This document shows positions 38,951 through 47,636 of a stretch of DNA of 64,000 nt, piece after piece (position 1 is the stretch's first letter; each line of letters begins with the position of its first letter). The DNA lies in contig AP024683.1 of assembly GCA_025999455.1 (NCBI GenBank), forward strand, positions 937,501-1,001,500. Reading direction: 5' to 3'. Below the pieces are notes generated by a model, which saw only the letters and a program-made list of their open reading frames with translations, was not told where the DNA came from and searched no databases. The DNA comes from Geminicoccaceae bacterium. GTDB taxonomy: Bacteria > Pseudomonadota > Alphaproteobacteria > Geminicoccales > Geminicoccaceae. A program made the translations under genes and the position numbers.

Positions 38951-41113
38951 TCAGGCGGCCGGCTCCTTCGGGCGGACGAGGTCGAGGGTTTCTTTCGCCA
39001 CCGCGGGGACGGAGTCGATCCCCGAACTTCCGCCTGCCACCTGCACGGTGGGTGTGGCGAAGCGGATGCCCTGTTCCGCGAATTTCTTCTTGACGAGGGC
39101 GAAGGCACGACGCCGGATCGTGAATTGCCGGCCGGGCTTGGTTTTGATTTTCATCCGGATCGTGATCGCGAAGTCGCCGAACTGCTCGACGCCCTGCATC
39201 TTCAGGGGCTCGATGATGTCGGGTCGGAATTCTTCGTTGTCCGTCAGCTCTTTGCTGACATCCTTGATGATCTTCTTCACCTTGTCGAGATCGGTGTCGA
39301 AGGGGACGTTGAAGCTCGTTTTGTCGATCACCCAATCGCGGCTCATGTTCTGGATCGCGCCGAGCGAGCCGAACGGAACGGTGTACAGTGGGCCGCGATG
39401 GTGGCGCAGCTTCACCGAACGCAGCGAGAAGCTTTCGACGGTCCCCTTGTAACTGCCGGATTGAATGTATTCGCCCACACGAAAAGCATCGTCCATCAGG
39501 TAGAACACGCCGGCGATGACGTCGCGCACGATCGTCTGCGCGCCGAAACCGACGGCGACACCGACCACGCCGGCACCGGCGATCAGCGGCCCGATCTCGA
39601 AGCCGAGAGACGATAGGGTCATCAGCACGGCCATCGAGACGCCCACGATCAGAGCCACGTTGCGCAGGATGGGTAACAAGGTGCGCTGACGGGCGTGGCG
39701 GCGCGCCTCTTCGCTCGCCGGGTCGGCGTCGCTCTGCGCTTCGGCGAGCCGCCGGTCGATCCAGGCGCGCAGCAGGTGCCAGAAAAAGTCGAGTGCCAAC
39801 AAAATGATACCGGCCTTGAGAGCGCCGGCGAAGAGACGGGTCGCCGTGCTGTCCCCGGCGGCGATGGTCGCCAGATCGAGACCCAGCACCCGCGCGACGA
39901 AGACGATGGCACCGGCGATCACCAGGGCCCGCAAACCCCGCTCGAGACACACGGCGGTCAGGGTCGGAGCGCCGCGCGAAGGTTCTTCGGCGTCACTGCT
40001 GCGCAGCAGCATGGTCACGGAGCGATCGACCAGGCGCAGGAGCAGCGGGACGATCCCGGCCGCGAGGCCGAGCCAGAAGAGGGTGGGGGCGCCGATCAGG
40101 ACGAGCAACCAGAGCGCGAGCAAGTATCCGGAGAGTGCCCAAGAAAGGGTGCGTGAGGGGGTGGGACCGGATGCGTTGTTCGCTGGTCGGCGCCAGATCG
40201 CGACGAGGCCGAGCGCGAGCCAGACGGCCGCTGCGAGCGAGGTGACGAGCGCGCGGAACGAGGGCGACGTGCCGAGCTCGGGAAGAAGGCCCAGGGTCGA
40301 ACGGGCCACCACGAACCAACCGACCAGCCAGACGAACCAGCGGGCCCAATGGCGCGCCGCGGCGTCGTCCATCGGCACGATGCGGAAGCGCGGCGCATCC
40401 GGTGCCAGGAAGAAACGGGCTGCGACGACCGCGAGCCGGATCACGAGGAAGGCCAAGAGATAAGTCAGGACCACGCGGTGCAAGAGCGGCGGCCAGGAGA
40501 ACAAGAGGAAGGCACCGACGCTGCCCAGCGCGAAGGCCCCGATCCAGAGCAGGCCGAAGCCCAAGCGCATGCCGACCGCCCGGAGCCGCTCGGACGGGGT
40601 GTCGAGCCGGCTCGCGAGGATCCGTTCACGGAGGCCCGCCGAGAAACGCCAGAACACGAGCTCGGCACCGAAGCCGAGCGCTGCGAAACCGAGCAGGAGC
40701 AGGAGGATCGTACCGAGCCCGTGCTGCTCCATTTCGCCCTTCAAGGAGGTGACGATCGCGGCGAGCTCGTTCGGCACCGTGGGGATCGCTCGGACGAGGC
40801 CCACGAGACGCGCCCGAACCGTGTCGACGGTGTTCACCATCCGCTCCTCGACCGAGCCCGTCGAAGAAAGCTCGGGCCCGTGATCGGATGCGATCGAGGA
40901 GAGCTGCCGTTGCGCCTGGAGCCAGTCGCGAACCGCGGGATCCTCGAGTAAACGGATCAGCTCCTGCACCGGCGGCGGAACGGGATCGTCGCTTCGGGCG
41001 AGCGCCGAAGGTGCGAAGGCCAGGAGCAGGCCGAGGAGGGGAAGCATCCACGTCGTAGCGCGCCGGATGCGCAGGCGGAACGGCACCGACGAGAGAGCGT
41101 GCAGGATCGGCAC
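38951..41113 (-). CDS. Mechanosensitive ion channel, large MscS family
   Basis: 720 residues from GTG 41113. GTG 41086 and ATG 41047 are alternatives; the first two keep the basic n-region RLRIRR before the signal sequence MLPLLGLLLAFAPSALA. A periplasmic helical domain, then about ten transmembrane helices, end in the pore helix region GAGVVGVAVGFGAQTIVRDVIAG. The MscS beta domain follows (FRVGEYIQSGSYKGTVESFSLRSVKLRHHRGPLYTVPFGSLGAI), then the cytoplasmic vestibule. It releases solutes on hypo-osmotic shock. The size places it with multi-helix YbiO/YnaI-like channels. No ribosome site stands out, so the start is uncertain. Confidence 0.88.
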   Translation of the reverse strand: MPILHALSSVPFRLRIRRATTWMLPLLGLLLAFAPSALARSDDPVPPPVQELIRLLEDPAVRDWLQAQRQLSSIASDHGPELSSTGSVEERMVNTVDTVRARLVGLVRAIPTVPNELAAIVTSLKGEMEQHGLGTILLLLLGFAALGFGAELVFWRFSAGLRERILASRLDTPSERLRAVGMRLGFGLLWIGAFALGSVGAFLLFSWPPLLHRVVLTYLLAFLVIRLAVVAARFFLAPDAPRFRIVPMDDAAARHWARWFVWLVGWFVVARSTLGLLPELGTSPSFRALVTSLAAAVWLALGLVAIWRRPANNASGPTPSRTLSWALSGYLLALWLLVLIGAPTLFWLGLAAGIVPLLLRLVDRSVTMLLRSSDAEEPSRGAPTLTAVCLERGLRALVIAGAIVFVARVLGLDLATIAAGDSTATRLFAGALKAGIILLALDFFWHLLRAWIDRRLAEAQSDADPASEEARRHARQRTLLPILRNVALIVGVSMAVLMTLSSLGFEIGPLIAGAGVVGVAVGFGAQTIVRDVIAGVFYLMDDAFRVGEYIQSGSYKGTVESFSLRSVKLRHHRGPLYTVPFGSLGAIQNMSRDWVIDKTSFNVPFDTDLDKVKKIIKDVSKELTDNEEFRPDIIEPLKMQGVEQFGDFAITIRMKIKTKPGRQFTIRRRAFALVKKKFAEQGIRFATPTVQVAGGSSGIDSVPAVAKETLDLVRPKEPAA

Positions 41114-41286
41114 GAGATCGTCATCCGAGGAAAGATCGTGAGGGCCTTTCCTATCAGTCCTTCCCCGGCGCGGCATCCCCCGGGTGGGAGGTCCGCGCGA
41201 CTTCGCCGACTCCCGTGTCGAGAGGTTCGAGGCGTGTGCTGCGAACGAGCCGTTTCGGATCGGCCGGGAAGCGCGCCGGCCTCGGG

Positions 41287-41799
41287 CTACCAATAGAGGT
41301 GCAGCCGTCCGCCCTCGACCGTCCACGACGAAAGCCGGGCGAGGAAGGTCGTGCCCAGCAGCGAGACGGGCATCGGTGCCTCGTTGACGACCGCCTCGAC
41401 ATGCGACAGGGCGAATTGGCCGATCCGGAGCTCGCGCAAGGTCACGGGCGCGGCTCGCACCGTGCCGTTGGCGGTTCGAAAGCGCAGGCTGTAACGCAAG
41501 CGGCCGGGTTCGAGCCCGATCCGGCGGGCGTCCTCGGGGCTCAGGACGATCGCGCTCGCCCCGCTGTCGACCAGGAAACGGACGGGTGTCCCGTCGACCA
41601 TCGCCTCGAGGTGGAAATGGCCGTTCGGCCCCGTCGGGACGCTGATGCGGTTCCAGCCACCACCCGACGGGCCGGGATCCCGGGTTTCGGGCGCGCGCGC
41701 CTCGGGCTCGTCGAACCGCACGACGAGTTGCGGCACGAAGCTCGGCACGAGGGTCGCCGATCCCAGGACGACCAGAACCAGCGCGACGATCCCGCGCAC
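41287..41799 (-). CDS. Membrane-anchored clan AA retropepsin-like aspartic protease (TIGR02281)
   Basis: 170 residues from GTG 41799, set by GGGAGGT a few bases upstream. A single N-terminal transmembrane helix (about 3-23) is followed by a periplasmic retropepsin fold: GHFHLEAMVDGTPVRFLVDSGASAIVLS, holding the catalytic Asp in VDSGAS, and the flap-like strand and end segment LLGTTFLARLSSWTVEGGRLHLYW. As in retropepsins, it should act as a dimer. This family is widespread in Alphaproteobacteria; its substrates are largely unknown. It lies downstream of ubiH on the same strand with a 225-base gap. Confidence 0.85.
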   Translation of the reverse strand: MRGIVALVLVVLGSATLVPSFVPQLVVRFDEPEARAPETRDPGPSGGGWNRISVPTGPNGHFHLEAMVDGTPVRFLVDSGASAIVLSPEDARRIGLEPGRLRYSLRFRTANGTVRAAPVTLRELRIGQFALSHVEAVVNEAPMPVSLLGTTFLARLSSWTVEGGRLHLYW

Positions 41800-42024
41800 C
41801 CCGACCTCCCGTCGGACGCCCTTGGCATCCTGAACGGTAGAGGTTGAGGAACGGTTATCGGGCAGGCATCGGCGAGAGCCCGAGTACGGCCGAGCCGTCG
41901 GCGGCGAACTCCGCCGCTCCGCCCGGGTTCCGACCACCGAGCCGACGGGATCTCGGCGGTTTCCGGGGCCCGCGCTCCGACGGATCCGGGTGGGCGGGTG
42001 GCCGGGCGGGCCGGGAACCTTGGC

Positions 42025-43263
42025 CTAAGCCGACCTCGCCGACCGCATGCTGCGCGGCAGCTCGCCCACGAGCCCCATGGCGTGGCGCATGAAGAATCGT
42101 TTGGCGGGCGGCAGGCGTTCCACCAGGCCGAGGCCGAGGTTGCGGAGGAGCTTGAGAGGCCCCACGTCGTTGCTGAAGAGGCGCTCGATTCCGTGGCAGA
42201 TCGAAACGAGGGCGAGGCCGTCGAAGCTCCGCCAGGCGGCGTACCGGTCGAGTGCTGATGCATCGCCCGGATCGAGGCCGAGCCGCAACCGTTCCTCGAC
42301 GACTTCGGCGAGAGCGGCCACGTCGCGAAGCGCCAGGTTCCAGCCTTGGCCGGCGATCGGATGGATGCCCCGAGCGGCATCCCCGACCAGAGCCACGCGC
42401 GGGGCGGTGATGCGTTCGCTTTCGACGAGGACGAGGGGAAAGTAGAAGCGAGGACCCTCGATCTCGATCCCGCCCAGGAGATCGCCGAAGCGCTCCTCGA
42501 CCTCGGCCGCGAACGCACGGTCGTCGAGCGCCCGCACGGCAGCGGCCTTCTCCGCCTCGAGCGCCCAAACGATCGACGAGCGGCGGCCTCGCATCGGCAA
42601 AATGGCGAACGGTCCATCGGGAAAGAACCGCTCGACCGCTCGGCCGCGGTGGGGACGCTCGTGCCGCAGCGTGCAGACGATGGCGAGCTGACGGTAATCG
42701 AAGCGGCGATCGCCGATCCCGAGCAGTTCACGGGTCGGCGAGAGCCGCCCTTCGCAGACCGCGAGCAAGGCCGTTTCGATGGCGCGGCCATCGGCGAGCT
42801 CGAGGCGGAGCCCACCAGTGCCGGTCTCGGCCGCGACGATCCGAGCCGGTGTGAACAGATCGAGGTCGGTCAGATCGGCGATGGTGGTCTGGAGTGCCAG
42901 GCGTAAGGTTCGGTTGGGGACGATCCAGCCGAGCGGCTCGTTACCGACCTCGCGATGGTCGTAGTGCACGCCGACGGGGCTCCCGGCTTCGCGCACGACG
43001 ATCTCGAGGATCGGCTCGGCTTCCGGGGCGATCGCCGGCCAAGCCCCGAGGCTCGCGAGGAAACGCTGGCTGCCGCGCGCCACGGCGGTCACCCGCCCGT
43101 CGTACTCGGGCTCGACGAGGCTCGCGAGCGGCGCCTGCTCCACGAGGGCGAGGCAGGTGCCGGCCCGGCCGAGCGCCGCGGCGAGCGCGAGCCCGGTGAG
43201 CCCGCCGCCCGCGATCGCGACCTCGACCCGGTGCGGTCTCGCGACTGCGCGTTTTTCGTCCAT
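42025..43263 (-). CDS. Ubiquinone biosynthesis FAD hydroxylase (UbiH/UbiF/VisC family)
   Basis: 412 residues, usual for the family. FAD-binding motifs in order: GGGLTGLALAAALGRAG (Rossmann, about 19-35), the YDGRVTAVARGSQRFL segment that marks UbiH-type enzymes, and VALVGDAARGIHPIAGQGWNLALRDVAAL (about 290-320). It hydroxylates the polyprenyl-benzoquinone ring during coenzyme Q synthesis, in a membrane-associated complex; which position (C1, C5 or C6) cannot be told. Its upstream region is the 275-base gap that carries the predicted RNA gene on the opposite strand. Confidence 0.88.
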   Translation of the reverse strand: MDEKRAVARPHRVEVAIAGGGLTGLALAAALGRAGTCLALVEQAPLASLVEPEYDGRVTAVARGSQRFLASLGAWPAIAPEAEPILEIVVREAGSPVGVHYDHREVGNEPLGWIVPNRTLRLALQTTIADLTDLDLFTPARIVAAETGTGGLRLELADGRAIETALLAVCEGRLSPTRELLGIGDRRFDYRQLAIVCTLRHERPHRGRAVERFFPDGPFAILPMRGRRSSIVWALEAEKAAAVRALDDRAFAAEVEERFGDLLGGIEIEGPRFYFPLVLVESERITAPRVALVGDAARGIHPIAGQGWNLALRDVAALAEVVEERLRLGLDPGDASALDRYAAWRSFDGLALVSICHGIERLFSNDVGPLKLLRNLGLGLVERLPPAKRFFMRHAMGLVGELPRSMRSARSA

Positions 43264-43335
43264 GGCCTGCCCGAACCCTGTTCAAATCCGCCACGAACCG
43301 GCGCGATCGGCTTCGACCTAACCGAGCTCGAGCGG

Positions 43336-43352
43336 TTGGCACAGGGATTGCG
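43336..43352 (+). promoter_or_regulatory. Predicted sigma-54 promoter of an intergenic RNA
   Basis: TTGGCACAGGGATTGCG matches the -24/-12 consensus YTGGCACGNNNNTTGCW at 11 of the fixed positions, with GG (43338-43339) and GC (43350-43351) separated by exactly ten bases. It would start RNA near 43363. It faces opposite to both flanking genes. An activator site is not identified. Confidence 0.5.
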
Positions 43353-43362
43353 ACGGTGGATC

Positions 43363-43480
43363 GCAGGTCGGTGGGTCCGTTGCGTGTGCCGGACTCCCCG
43401 GCCGTCGGTTTGGCCCGAGCGCCGCCTTCGGGTGGCGAGCTGGACCCGGGTGGTCCCCCCGGCCCCCGGGTCCTTTTTTT
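43363..43480 (+). ncRNA. Predicted structured small RNA of about 118 nt
   Basis: It lies in the non-coding gap between ubiH and holA (both minus strand). The predicted start is 12 bases after a near-consensus sigma-54 -12 element. The predicted end is an intrinsic terminator whose T7 tract runs 43474-43480. Inside it, CGCCGCC-TTCG-GGTGGCG (43420-43437) forms a 7-bp stem with one G-U pair, capped by the very stable UUCG tetraloop. No open frame with a ribosome site is evident in it. It matches no RNA family I recognise (not SRP RNA, RNase P, 6S or tmRNA by their conserved motifs). Expression and function are unproven. Confidence 0.45.
43442..43480 (+). terminator. Strong intrinsic terminator on the plus strand
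   Basis: GGACCCGGG (43442-43450) pairs perfectly with CCCGGGTCC (43465-43473) around a 14-base loop and is followed at once by seven T (43474-43480). This is the only stem-plus-T-tract terminator seen in the window. The T tract is on the plus strand, so it does not serve holA, which is transcribed the other way. Confidence 0.75.
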
Positions 43481-43538
43481 CGTCCCACGCCGCGCGATCC
43501 CCGTCGCCGGCCCTCGTGGTCGGCATCGGCCCCGCTCG

Positions 43539-44582
43539 TCAGACGACCGACGTCGCCGGCGCGGGCGCACGATCGGCGAGCTCGGCGAGGGTTCGGCGCA
43601 GCAGCAGGATGTCGGGACGGCCCGTGCTCTTGAGTTCGGCCTCGGCCGCCACGAGCCGGCCGAGTTCGGCGACGAGCCGCTCGCTCGACCATCGGCCGAG
43701 CGCGGCCGCGAACCGGTCCTTGAGGCGGAAATGGACGGGTGGCCGGGCGGTCGCGAGGGCAGCCTCGATGCTCGCGCCTCGCTCGACCTCGGCCCGCAGG
43801 CGGAGGAGGCGCAGAACCGTGCCGGTCGCGGTGCGGAGGATCCGCACGGGCGCTTCGCCCAGGGCCAGGAGGCGCAAGAGATCCCGCTCGAGCCGCGCCC
43901 GATCGCCGGAGAGCGCCGCCAAGACGACGTCGTCGAAGGCGAGGGCCGAACCGTCGCCGACCACCGCGGCAGCATCGGCGAGACGGACGACCCGATCGCC
44001 CTCGGGGCCCAGATAGAGCGCGAGCTTGGCGATCTCGCTGCGCAGCACGGCGCGGTCCGCACCCTGTTGCTCGATCAAGAAGGCGAGCGCCTCCGGTTCC
44101 GCTTCGAGCCCGTGTTCCGCCAGAAGCGCCCGGATCGTTCGCGCCCGCTCGCGCTCACCCTCCGGCCAGCAGCCGATCACGACGGCGCCGCGTGCTTTCT
44201 CGGCGAGCTGCCGGAGCTTGGAGCCCGCAGCCAGATCGCCGGCTTCGATCACCACGAGCGCCTCGATCCGCTCGAGCCCGAGGAGCAGCTCGACCGCCTT
44301 CGCGATCCCGTCGTCCGCGCCGCGCACCCGGACCAGCCTCCGGCCGCCGAGAAAACAGAGCGCTTGCGCCTCGAGGGCGAGCCGCTGCGGTTCGGCGCGC
44401 AAGCGATCGGGTTCGACCTCGCTCACCCGGAACGGATCGGCGAGGTCCGGGACGACGCTCCGGCCGAGGCGTTCGGCGCGCTCGGCCACGAGCCCCGCGT
44501 CCGGGCCGAACAGGAGCACGAGCCCGATCTCGGGGTCGGGCCGGTCGAGGAAGGCTTCGAGGCGGGCGGGCGGCAGTCTCAC
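43539..44582 (-). CDS. holA: DNA polymerase III subunit delta
   Basis: 347 residues, usual for HolA, with GTG 44582 overlapping the lptE stop (GTGA). An AAA+-like N-terminal domain (LVLLFGPDAGLVAERAERLGRSVV, without a Walker A, as in all delta subunits) is followed by QALCFLGGRRLVRVRGAD and LVVIEAGDLAAGSKLRQLAEK, then the helical collar domain. Delta is the wrench that opens the sliding clamp in the clamp loader. The order leuS-lptE-holA is widely conserved. Downstream is the gap with the predicted RNA. Confidence 0.92.
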   Translation of the reverse strand: MRLPPARLEAFLDRPDPEIGLVLLFGPDAGLVAERAERLGRSVVPDLADPFRVSEVEPDRLRAEPQRLALEAQALCFLGGRRLVRVRGADDGIAKAVELLLGLERIEALVVIEAGDLAAGSKLRQLAEKARGAVVIGCWPEGERERARTIRALLAEHGLEAEPEALAFLIEQQGADRAVLRSEIAKLALYLGPEGDRVVRLADAAAVVGDGSALAFDDVVLAALSGDRARLERDLLRLLALGEAPVRILRTATGTVLRLLRLRAEVERGASIEAALATARPPVHFRLKDRFAAALGRWSSERLVAELGRLVAAEAELKSTGRPDILLLRRTLAELADRAPAPATSVV

Positions 44583-45091
44583 TTGTCGGCGCTCGCGAAA
44601 TGCACGGCGAGCCGGGTGCGGATTTCCCGGGCGAGCTCCTTCGCCGCGCGCCGCTCGGCGTCTTGCTCGGCCACGAGGGTCGCATAGGGGGCACGGACCA
44701 CGTTGTAGCTCGCCACCCGGCGGACGGCGGAGCGGTAGAGCACCCGGCCGTCGGCCTTGCGGACCAAGTCGAACCTCGCCGCGAGGGTGAGGTCGAAGCG
44801 GGTCGTGACGTCGTCGAGCTGGACCGCGAGGGGGCTCTTCTCGCGGTCGAGACGGATCACGAGGAGGTGCGAAGGCGGCGGGTCGAGCCCCGCCGGATCG
44901 AGCTCTCGGCGCAATTCGGTCGCCAGGATCTGGCCGAGCCGGTTGCGCGGGGCATCGACCTCGATCGAGGCGAGGGCCGGGTTCACCCGTTCGCCGAGGC
45001 CCGGCCCGTGGAGCGGCGTGAGGGCGCAGCCGGAACCGAACGCCGTGAGGAGAACGAGGAGCGTCCGGCGAAACGGCTCACGCCACGACAT
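44579..45091 (-). CDS. lptE: LPS-assembly lipoprotein LptE
   Basis: 170 residues from ATG 45091, which overlaps the end of leuS by 14 bases. The N-terminus [22 protein letters not shown] is a lipoprotein signal with Cys at 22. The mature part has the alternating strand/helix pattern of LptE ([43 protein letters not shown] near the end is a strong family match). LptE plugs the LptD barrel that places LPS in the outer leaflet. Translationally coupled to holA. Confidence 0.9.
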
Positions 45092-47636
45092 TGACGATCT
45101 TGTCGGGCACCACCACGACCCGTTTCGGCGTCTTGCCGTCGAGCGCGCGGCGGACGGCCGGGTCGGCGAGGGCCGCCGCCTCGACGGTGGCACGATCGGC
45201 TCCCTTGGCGACCGTGATCTCCGATCGCCGCTTGCCGTTGACCTGGACCGGCAGCGTCACCTGGTCTTCGACCAGGAACGCCGGGTCGGCCACGAGCCAA
45301 GGCGTGTCGGCGAGCAAGGTCGAATGGCCGAGCCGCTCCCAGAGCTCCTCCGCGAGGTGCGGCGTCATGGGCTCGATCAGCCGCACGAAGGTCTCGAGCG
45401 CCTGACGCAAGAGCGGCGCGTTGGCGCCGCGATAGTCCTCGATGCCGTTGGTGAGCTCGCGGACGAGGGCGACGGCCTTGTTGAAGTGGAAGCGTTCCAG
45501 AGCGTCCGTGACGCTCGCGATCGAGCGGTGGATCAGCCGGGCGAGCGCCAGATCCTCGCCCGACAGGCTTTCGCGCGGGACGGGTGTTCCGGGCGGCGGC
45601 AGGAGTGCGAGGCGCTCGTCGACGATCCGCCAGAGCCGGTTGAGGTAGCGCCAGGCCCCGTCGATCCCGGCATCCGTCCATTCCAGATCCCGATCCGGCG
45701 GGCTGTCCGAGAGCATGAACAGCCGCGCGGTGTCGGCGCCGTAGGTCTCGATGATCTCGCTCGGGTCGACGGTGTTGAGCTTGGATTTGCTCATCTTCTC
45801 GATCCGGCCGGCGATCACGCGACGTCCGTCTCGGGTCGCGAGCTCCCCCTTCTCGTTCTTGATCACCTCCTTGGGCTCGAGCCAGTTGCCCGCCTCGTCC
45901 CGATAGGTCTGATGGGTGATCATGCCCTGGGTGAAGAGACCGGCGAACGGCTCGTCGAGGTCGAGATAGCCGCAATCGCGCATCGCTCGGGTGAAGAAGC
46001 GGGAATAGAGGAGGTGCAGGACCGCGTGTTCGATCCCGCCGATGTACTGGTCCACCGGCAGCCAGTACGCGACCGCGTCGCGCGCGAAGGGGAGGTCCGG
46101 GTTCTTCGGATCGCAGAAGCGGGCGAAATACCAAGAGCTCTCGACGAAGGTGTCGAAGGTGTCGGTCTCGCGCACCGCTTTCCCGCCGCAGCGCGGGCAG
46201 CTCGTGTGCTTCCAGGTCGGATGACGATCGAGCGGGTTGCCGGCGCCCGTGATGTCGACGTCTTCGGGGAGAAGGACCGGCAGCTGGTCGCGCGGGACCG
46301 GCACGATGCCGCAGCCCGGGCAGTGGATCATCGGGATGGGGCAGCCCCAATAGCGCTGGCGCGAGACGCCCCAATCGCGGAGCCGCCAGCTCACCTCACC
46401 CTTACCGGCGCCGAGCCGTTCCAGTTCCTGGACGATGCGTTTTTTCGCTGCCGCGACGTCGAGGCCGTCGAGGAACGCCGAGTTGAAGAGGCGCCCGTCC
46501 CCCACATAGGCCTCGTCGCCGATCGTGAAGGTCGCGGGATCGGCACCCTCGGGCAGGACGACGGGCAGAACCGGGAGACCGTATTTCCGGGCGAACTCCA
46601 GATCGCGCTGATCGTGTGCCGGGCAACCGAAGATCGCCCCGGTGCCGTATTCGGACAGCACGAAGTTGGCGACGTAGATCGGCAGGAGCTGCTCGGGGCG
46701 AACCGGGTTGCGGCAACGGAGGCCGGTGTCGAAACCGCGCTTCTCCATGGTCTCGAGCTCGGCCTCGGAGGTGCTCCCTTTGAGACATTCGGCCACGAAG
46801 GCGGCGAGCCCCGGATCGCGGCCGGCCAGTTCCGTCGTGAGCGGATGGTCCGGGGCGAGCGCCACGAAGGACGCGCCGAAGAGCGTGTCCGGGCGGGTCG
46901 AGAAGACCTCCAGCCGATCACCGCGGCCGACGACCTCGAACGCGATCCGCGCCCCTTCCGAACGGCCGATCCAGTTCCGCTGCATGAGCCGAACCTTCTC
47001 CGGCCAGCGATCGAGCCGATCGAGGGCGGCCAGAAGATCTTCGGCATAGGCCGTGATCTTGAAGAACCATTGGGCGAGCTTGCGGCGTTCGACCGGCGCA
47101 CCGGAGCGCCAACCCTTGCCGTCGATGACCTGCTCGTTGGCGAGCACGGTCTGATCGACCGGGTCCCAGTTCACCCAGCTCTCGCGCCGGTAGACGAGCC
47201 CTCGTTCCCACATGGCGAGGAACATCGCCTGCTCGTGCTTGTAATAGTCCGGATCGCAGGTGGCGATTTCGCGCGTCCAATCGATCGAGAGACCCATCGA
47301 GCGGATCTGTGCCCGCATCTCGGCGATGTTGCCGTAGGTCCAGGTTTTCGGGTGGATCCCACGCTTCACCGCCGCCCCTTCGGCCGGTAGGCCGAAGGCG
47401 TCCCAGCCCATCGGGTGGAGGACGTTGTAGCCCTGCGCGCGCTTGAGCCGCGCAATGACGTCGCCCAGCGTGTAGTTGCGGACGTGACCCATGTGGATCC
47501 GGCCCGAGGGGTAAGGAAACATCTCGAGCACGTAATATTTGGGTCGATCTGGATCGACGCGGACTTCGAAGATCCGACGTTCGTCCCAAATGCGCTGCCA
47601 CTTGGCCTCGCTCGCACGGAAATTGTACCGGCTCAT
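45078..47636 (-). CDS. leuS: Leucyl-tRNA synthetase
   Basis: 852 residues. Class I motifs: the HIGH box as HMGH (48-51) in [19 protein letters not shown], and KMSKS at about 614-618. The editing (CP1) domain lies between them (with [16 protein letters not shown] and the [25 protein letters not shown] editing site), followed by the anticodon-binding domain ([17 protein letters not shown]) and a C-terminal tRNA-binding tail. It charges tRNA-Leu. Second gene of the DUF3576-leuS-lptE-holA unit. Confidence 0.97.

Follow-up and report, generated by a model that had tools for sequence, protein, structure and literature searches.

What, if anything, is transcribed from the gap between two minus-strand genes of this Geminicoccaceae genome, where a predicted sigma-54 promoter and an intrinsic terminator lie on the plus strand, and from what could such a unit have arisen? 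An initial annotation of the window (the whole stretch of 64,000 nucleotides that was analysed) had proposed a sigma-54-controlled RNA of about 118 nt at this place, and every piece that it named was recovered, i.e. TTGGCACAGGGATTGCG at 43336-43352, the 7-bp UUCG-capped stem, the 9-bp stem and the T7 tract (Table 1). The start of the RNA at 43363 is the one expected from the spacing to the sigma-54 promoter. The place had been called the ubiH-holA gap; the first name is upheld by a match to the UbiH/UbiF/COQ6 model, but the second finds no backing, as a Pfam search with the ORF at 43539-44582 yielded no family at E 1e-6.

Table 1. Features of the ubiH gap in the window, with strand and supporting remarks.
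Feature	Position	Strand	Remarks
ubiH-type hydroxylase (UbiH/UbiF/COQ6 family)	42025..43263	-	UbiH/UbiF/COQ6 model match; divergent neighbour in 8/8 RNA-bearing genomes
NtrC-type dyad TGC-N11-GCA, one mismatch, TGCCCGAACCCTGTTCA	43268..43284	+	69 nt upstream of the -24 element
Sigma-54 promoter TGGCACAGGGATTGC (-24 GG, -12 GC)	43337..43351	+	upstream of ubiH in 7/8 RNA-bearing genomes
Predicted small RNA, about 118 nt	43363..43480	+	fold z -3.18; homologues in the family by covariance model
5' stem-loop (GGTCGG..CCGGCC)	43366..43403	+	helix predicted alike in four genus members
Conserved core GTTTGGCCCGAGCG, 14 nt, probable pairing seed	43408..43421	+	identical to last amtB codons in G024
UUCG-capped hairpin CGCCGCC-TTCG-GGTGGCG, 7 pairs, one G-U	43420..43437	+	4/7 pairs changed on both sides
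Intrinsic terminator: 9-bp stem, 14-nt loop, T7	43442..43480	+	
ORF named holA by the initial annotation	43539..44582	-	downstream neighbour of the RNA within the genus; name unconfirmed

The promoter matches the sigma-54 pattern TGGCAC-N5-TTGC (GG-N10-GC) perfectly. Taken alone, this pattern is only modestly rare: it occurs seven times in the 3.76-Mb genome, versus three times for the reversed pattern, and 47 versus 27 times over the six genomes of the genus. The weight of the promoter lies in its conservation and not in its rarity. At the other end of the unit, GGACCCGGG (43442-43450) pairs with CCCGGGTCC (43465-43473) in nine perfect pairs, and the seven T residues follow at 43474-43480. 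That this is the only terminator in 64 kb holds true at the stringency that was applied to this window of 70% G+C, since no other site on either strand combines a perfectly paired, G+C-rich stem of 7 or more pairs with a run of 5 or more T directly after it. A looser scan of positions 40000-47000 gave five sites, one of them within this terminator, compared with 3.0 +/- 1.5 in shuffled sequences. The stretch 43363-43480 folds with -69.4 kcal/mol, equalled by none of 200 shuffles. No parent gene lies upstream of the RNA in the window, and thus it does not qualify as a 3'UTR-derived sRNA that shares the terminator of an mRNA; instead, it has the properties of an independent intergenic sRNA gene, namely a predicted promoter and a terminator of its own, no ORF and a conserved structure. 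Measured against Rfam, the RNA represents a new family, in agreement with the earlier statement that it resembles none: Rfam 15 gave no match in the window at gathering score, and at E up to 10 the stretch 43200-43600 gave three matches, all of them on the minus strand and far below the thresholds.

The unit is retained in the same gap by three of the five other genomes of the genus (G004, G005 and G002), and the gaps of the remaining two, G001 and G003, contain neither the promoter nor the core. TGGCACAGG-N2-TTGCG and CGGTTTGGCCCGAG are invariant in the four genomes including that of the window, the four RNAs have the same order of stems, and the three homologues fold with z values of -1.88, -2.12 and -3.66. 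A covariance model of the four sequences that included the promoter (R1) was run over 31 genomes of the family and matched in 13 of them at E <=0.1. It led to the core, the hairpin, the terminator and a perfect TGGCAC-N5-TTGC in G011, G018 and G022, with 40-110 nt from the start of the promoter to the core (the promoter of G011 being outside the matched stretch), and to a unit in G012 that has a variant core, no perfect promoter and only T4. In these four genomes the RNA is directly upstream of and divergent from ubiH, and the other neighbour varies, being a gene for an OppC-type permease in G011 and G022, a ferritin-like gene in G018 and an ORF without Pfam match in G012. The unit thus adjoins ubiH in 8 of the 26 Geminicoccaceae genomes in which ubiH was found and spans five genera, and the -24/-12 element, whose conservation the initial annotation had made a touchstone, is present as TGGCAC-N5-TTGC in seven of the eight homologues. 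The 5' part of the RNA has no sequence likeness outside the genus. It may be added that the 5' half of the G011 RNA (L026) contains a long near-perfect hairpin before the core (fold z -4.55), which can pair with the GTTTG of the core and may hide or present it.

A second model (R2) comprised the core, the hairpin and the terminator and was trained on the small RNAs only, without any amtB sequence. It reached E <=1e-6 in 10 of the 31 genomes, and all 31 genomes searched from the order belong to this one family, the Geminicoccaceae. Among 385 genomes of the class, at least four of them from the family, the 1e-6 level was reached by the window's own genome alone and E 0.001 by three genomes, one of them again the window's own, in a search with stricter filters and an even draw that may miss weak relatives. 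The class-wide matches outside the order (L057 and L058) have no core and look like chance terminators, and the R1 matches L030, L033 and L034 as well as the R2 matches L054, L055 and L056 were also set aside for lack of a core. Exact copies of CGGTTTGGCCCGA in G027, G010, G009 and G013 and a second copy in G004 were attributed to chance, because they have no promoter within 200 nt upstream and no 3' part of the RNA.

In an alignment of seven RNAs from four genera (A4, leaving aside G012, G024 and G028), the core has stayed the same at 12 of its 14 positions while the flanks have diverged. The two-helix structure is paired in 91.4% of the cells, versus 37-51% when it is slid along the alignment. 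Doubly changed cells number 13, compared with 5.1 +/- 1.6 in shuffled alignments, none of 500 of which reached 13; further pair types (9 versus 10.3) are not above the shuffled level. In the terminator, three of the eight counted pairs have changed on both sides and five are invariable. Both helices thus contain compensatory changes, as would be expected if the stems are conserved in relatives, with a slight bias in the covariation because the model used to select the relatives already included a structure.

Among the ten R2 genomes, G024 and G028, which belong to one genus, gave their match at the end of amtB, a gene for an ammonium transporter (PF00909), with whole-genome E values of 1.2e-8 and 1.0e-7, respectively. 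These matches could be regarded as a coding coincidence, a view that was dropped once a search for ubiH had placed amtB in the same slot. This search recovered ubiH in 26 of the 31 genomes at E <=1e-70, which make up both the slot table and the final UbiH tree; G027, G030, G015, G028 and G016 had no UbiH match at this level, and the second copies that G026 and G007 possess were left out of the counts. In eight of these 26 genomes (G024, G010, G021, G013, G009, G023, G014 and G008), amtB lies divergent from ubiH behind TGGCA[CT]-N5-TTGC, with TGGCAC in six and TGGCAT in G013 and G023, the distance from the promoter to the first aligned codon of ubiH being 116-251 nt. The remaining slots hold the sigma-54 promoter and the RNA in seven genomes, the RNA without a perfect promoter in G012, a sigma-54-like element alone in G007, and none of these in nine. 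In none of the 26 genomes do the RNA and the slot amtB occur together in one slot, and each of the eight RNA genomes has a second Amt type elsewhere.

Several arrangements around ubiH deserve mention in their own right. In G008 (C1:3148850-3151613; L089, L069), two tandem Amt genes, the slot type first, lie behind the sigma-54 element beside ubiH. In genomes of the genera g2, g13 and g15 that have neither the RNA nor a slot amtB, another Amt type is convergent with ubiH on its far side (the loci with Amt on this side are L070, L071, L073, L075, L078, L082 and L090). Upstream of ubiH in G007 (L086), the sigma-54-like sequence TGGCATGGCGCTTGC is followed by neither amtB nor RNA, and this slot is perhaps a further stage of loss.

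The likeness between the RNA and amtB concerns the 3' half of the RNA. The last amtB codons of G024 read GAG TTT GGC CCG AGC GCT GTC TGA (Glu-Phe-Gly-Pro-Ser-Ala-Val-stop), and the amtB 3' end agrees with the core at all 14 letters in G024 and at 12 of 14 in G028, so that in these two genomes the related segment sits at the 3' end of an mRNA. In both, the core is followed by a hairpin and then a terminator, in the order and with the spacing of the RNA, and the stretch folds with z values of -7.11 (G024) and -3.32 (G028; here the contig begins inside amtB and the ubiH neighbourhood lies outside it). The best R2 match is the 3' end in all seven amtB loci that contain it; the eighth locus, L065, ends before the amtB 3' end. 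The five ends beyond G024 and G028 (L064, L066-L069) score 11-24 bits, mostly via the terminator, and in G008 and G013 the match begins exactly at the Glu-Phe-Gly codons. AmtB has the C-terminal sequence AYPEFG in common in the eight ends that were read, and thus part of the core match is explained by these codons; because the deepest branches also have them in their AmtB, it is most likely that the first half of the core passed from amtB to the RNA and not in the reverse direction. A comparison by eye of the RNA 5' half with amtB 5' regions revealed no likeness.

The direction of change is also indicated by the UbiH trees. The deepest lineages, G008, G009, G013, G023 and G014, carry amtB, with the exception of G007 beside G009, and the RNAs are confined to a group of 20 genomes (support 97/97 and 93/94 in two trees) that also contains the amtB genomes G010, G021 and G024. 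Since amtB is present in the deepest lineages and the RNAs occur only inside this group, the amtB state seems to be the older one. On the UbiH tree, the RNA genomes fall into three separate branches. Placing all non-amtB members of the group into one clade, which was named after an earlier tree had been seen, lowered the log-likelihood by 0.61 and was not rejected (p-AU 0.25). It should be noted that the inner branches of the trees are weak, that G018 is a long branch, and that the outgroup of one tree consisted of G007b and three paralogues. The trees are compatible with one loss of amtB as well as with several.

The connection to nitrogen had been a guess in the initial annotation, and it gains support from the synteny with sigma-54-driven amtB and from the NtrC-type dyad upstream of the promoter. 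TGC-N11-GCA is the NtrC motif given for S. meliloti in excerpts of PMC10746234. At -69, the dyad has one mismatch in the window and in G005 and is exact in G002, and G004 has no dyad within one mismatch at this position. Exact dyads are present between ubiH and the -24 element in six of the eight amtB promoters (shuffled mean 0.72; none of 1000 shuffles reached six) and in three of the seven RNA promoters (shuffled mean 0.32; reached by one in 1000), and they are situated 59-90 nt before the -24 element. In the stretch from 105 to 55 nt before this element, which was chosen after the sites had been seen, a spacing of 11 gave exact dyads in 9 of 16 promoters and dyads with at most one mismatch in all 16, and eleven other spacings gave exact dyads in 0-1 and dyads within one mismatch in 2-9 of the 16. 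The dyad of G024 has one mismatch and is located at -100. The same dyad is found upstream of the second Amt gene in five of the eight RNA genomes, the window's own not among them. At these five loci (L093, L094, L095, L096 and L099), the dyads are 215-334 nt upstream of the aligned start, with two dyads each in L094, L096 and L099, and there is no sigma-54 element within one mismatch upstream of the gene.

The genome contains rpoN, the presence of which had been proposed as a check, ntrC (672 bits, cut-off 559), ntrX above its cut-off, and hfq. The genes ntrC and ntrX adjoin genes for ntrB- and ntrY-like kinases that score below their own cut-offs, and hfq is about 7 kb away. The segment G000:C1:2016900-2027000 (L107, L110) encompasses the ntrB-like gene, ntrC, the ntrY-like gene, ntrX, a TrkA-domain gene, a class IV aminotransferase gene and hfq, and thus nitrogen control genes and the Hfq gene lie together at one place. 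Other enhancer-binding proteins of the genome are NtrX, a protein nearest to FlbD (below cut-off), a PEP-CTERM-type regulator and three weak matches, and proteins other than NtrC may also serve as activators.

We consider it probable that the locus is a nitrogen-controlled, free-standing non-coding small RNA gene that descended from a sigma-54-driven amtB. The comparative part of this explanation is carried by a slot that holds either sigma-54-amtB or sigma-54-RNA, by the match of the 3' half, and by the conserved promoter, core and stems. Somewhat more cautiously, we lean towards a birth of the gene by subtraction, in which the amtB coding sequence would have been lost, perhaps repeatedly, and the NtrC/sigma-54 promoter, the last codons, the hairpin and the terminator would have been kept. 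The same loss could have left behind a decaying relic, in which the promoter and the terminator outlast the deleted amtB and give rise to a short, useless transcript that has no regulatory function; after all, the locus is the amtB slot, G001 and G003 are without the unit, and in G007 a sigma-54-like element has remained although both amtB and the RNA are absent. However, 12 of the 14 core letters have remained invariant in seven RNAs of four genera despite diverged flanks, both helices contain compensatory changes, and the -24/-12 element is exact in seven of eight cases, all of which makes a mere relic unlikely. The likeness to amtB might also be convergent, the RNA being of separate origin and the Glu-Phe-Gly codons together with a generic terminator producing a chance resemblance. 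AYPEFG in the eight amtB ends would indeed force most of GTTyGG, and five other amtB 3' ends score low, but the slot, the promoter type and the direction are all the same, and 14 of 14 core letters in G024 as well as a whole-genome E near 1e-8, obtained with a model that had no amtB training, argue against chance; we therefore regard convergence as very improbable.

A different kind of explanation would be a cis element for ubiH, whereby NtrC/sigma-54-dependent transcription away from the gene, or an RNA antisense to a read-through mRNA, tunes ubiquinone synthesis. The linkage to ubiH is kept in all eight RNA genomes while the other neighbour changes, and the far neighbours in g1, G011, G022 and G018 are co-oriented with ubiH, so that the RNA would be complementary to an mRNA that reads through. 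The amtB genomes, however, have the same linkage, which is thus explained by descent from the amtB slot, and an antisense effect would need neither a conserved 14-nt core nor a terminator; a role in cis is quite doubtful for these reasons, slightly less so than convergence. The lowest probability is assigned to a short mRNA for a small peptide: in the G018 RNA, the core is overlapped by ORFs of 17-22 codons, but six of the seven RNAs have no complete ORF of at least 8 codons, which makes a small mRNA unlikely, and some of the indels that distinguish the genus members have lengths not divisible by three.

Judged from the alignment, the strongest sequence constraint is on the core, just before the hairpin and the terminator, and in sRNAs from mRNA 3' ends this is a usual place of the seed. 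The core is thus probably a pairing seed, and from conservation alone we infer a regulatory function of the RNA. In the eight RNA genomes, the amtB-B loci contain no exact complement of the core longer than 9 nt. The window has 13 core complements of at least 9 nt, one of which is the gene's own opposite strand; shuffled cores gave a mean of 6.9 (sd 7.0), and 50 of 300 reached 12, so that the count is within the spread. The scan for exact complements as a whole covered the window and the loci of amtB-B, ntr, rpoN and ubiH, and none of the sites in it is conspicuous.

The following course of events would be in accord with these features. Under a shortage of ammonia, NtrC in its phosphorylated form would bind at TGC-N11-GCA and activate the sigma-54 polymerase at 43337-43351, and transcription would proceed from about 43363 to the T tract at 43480. 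The resulting RNA, probably together with Hfq, would pair with target mRNAs via the core UUUGGCCCGAGCG, which originally would have been the last codons of amtB. The 3' end of the amtB mRNA would have carried (or could have carried) the regulatory segment first, as the glnA mRNA carries GlnZ, and this segment would have outlived the protein-coding part of amtB.

By analogy, GlnZ is the nearest known system in logic. It is a sRNA that is released from the glnA 3'UTR under nitrogen limitation in Enterobacteriaceae (excerpts of PMC9731577). As far as these excerpts go, both would share the setting of nitrogen limitation, a regulatory segment with which an mRNA for nitrogen assimilation ends and a conserved seed sequence, but here the parent is amtB and not glnA, the parental coding sequence is gone in the window, and the bacteria are different; the two sequences were compared through the Rfam search only. 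Because the RNA has a sigma-54 promoter to itself, it would need no release by RNase E, unlike GlnZ. A parallel for two states at one place is MalH / MicX, for which the available text of PMC9438474 describes one genomic place that yields an sRNA from an mRNA 3' end in one species, whereas in another the sRNA is transcribed from a promoter of its own; the text states that no common targets are known and calls this divergent evolution. Our case would be alike in that one place has an sRNA segment at an mRNA 3' end in some genomes and an independent sRNA in others, and it differs from what that text describes in that the promoter, the core, the hairpin and the terminator can be traced between both states. 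Within the Alphaproteobacteria, NfeR1 of Sinorhizobium has a promoter without sigma-54 signature and is repressed by NtrC, according to excerpts of PMC10746234. To the extent of that description, the RNA would resemble NfeR1 as a nitrogen-linked alphaproteobacterial sRNA with a TGC-N11-GCA NtrC-type site, but a sigma-54 element is present here, and no Rfam family matches the RNA.

NrsZ of Pseudomonas is a sigma-54/NtrC-dependent sRNA gene; it is likened to the RNA by description, and its sequence was compared through the Rfam search only. Among the literature matches listed, there was neither an sRNA tied to amtB nor an sRNA gene born by loss of its parental coding sequence, which is no proof of absence, and a full-text search of the library used for Geminicoccaceae together with small RNA found no paper.

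To our knowledge, the birth of bacterial small RNA genes can seldom be traced, because these genes diverge fast. Here, one family appears to show sigma-54-amtB and sigma-54-RNA at one syntenic slot, and in the genus of G024 and G028 amtB still ends in the core of the RNA or a close variant of it. This offers a testable case for the conversion of an mRNA 3' end into an independent sRNA gene through loss of the coding sequence, and if the origin proposed is true, it would be a clear example of an sRNA gene that remained after its parent gene had gone. For the Geminicoccaceae, it adds a probable nitrogen-control RNA, in which a segment of a transporter mRNA, if our reading is true, would have outlived the transporter and would still report nitrogen hunger.
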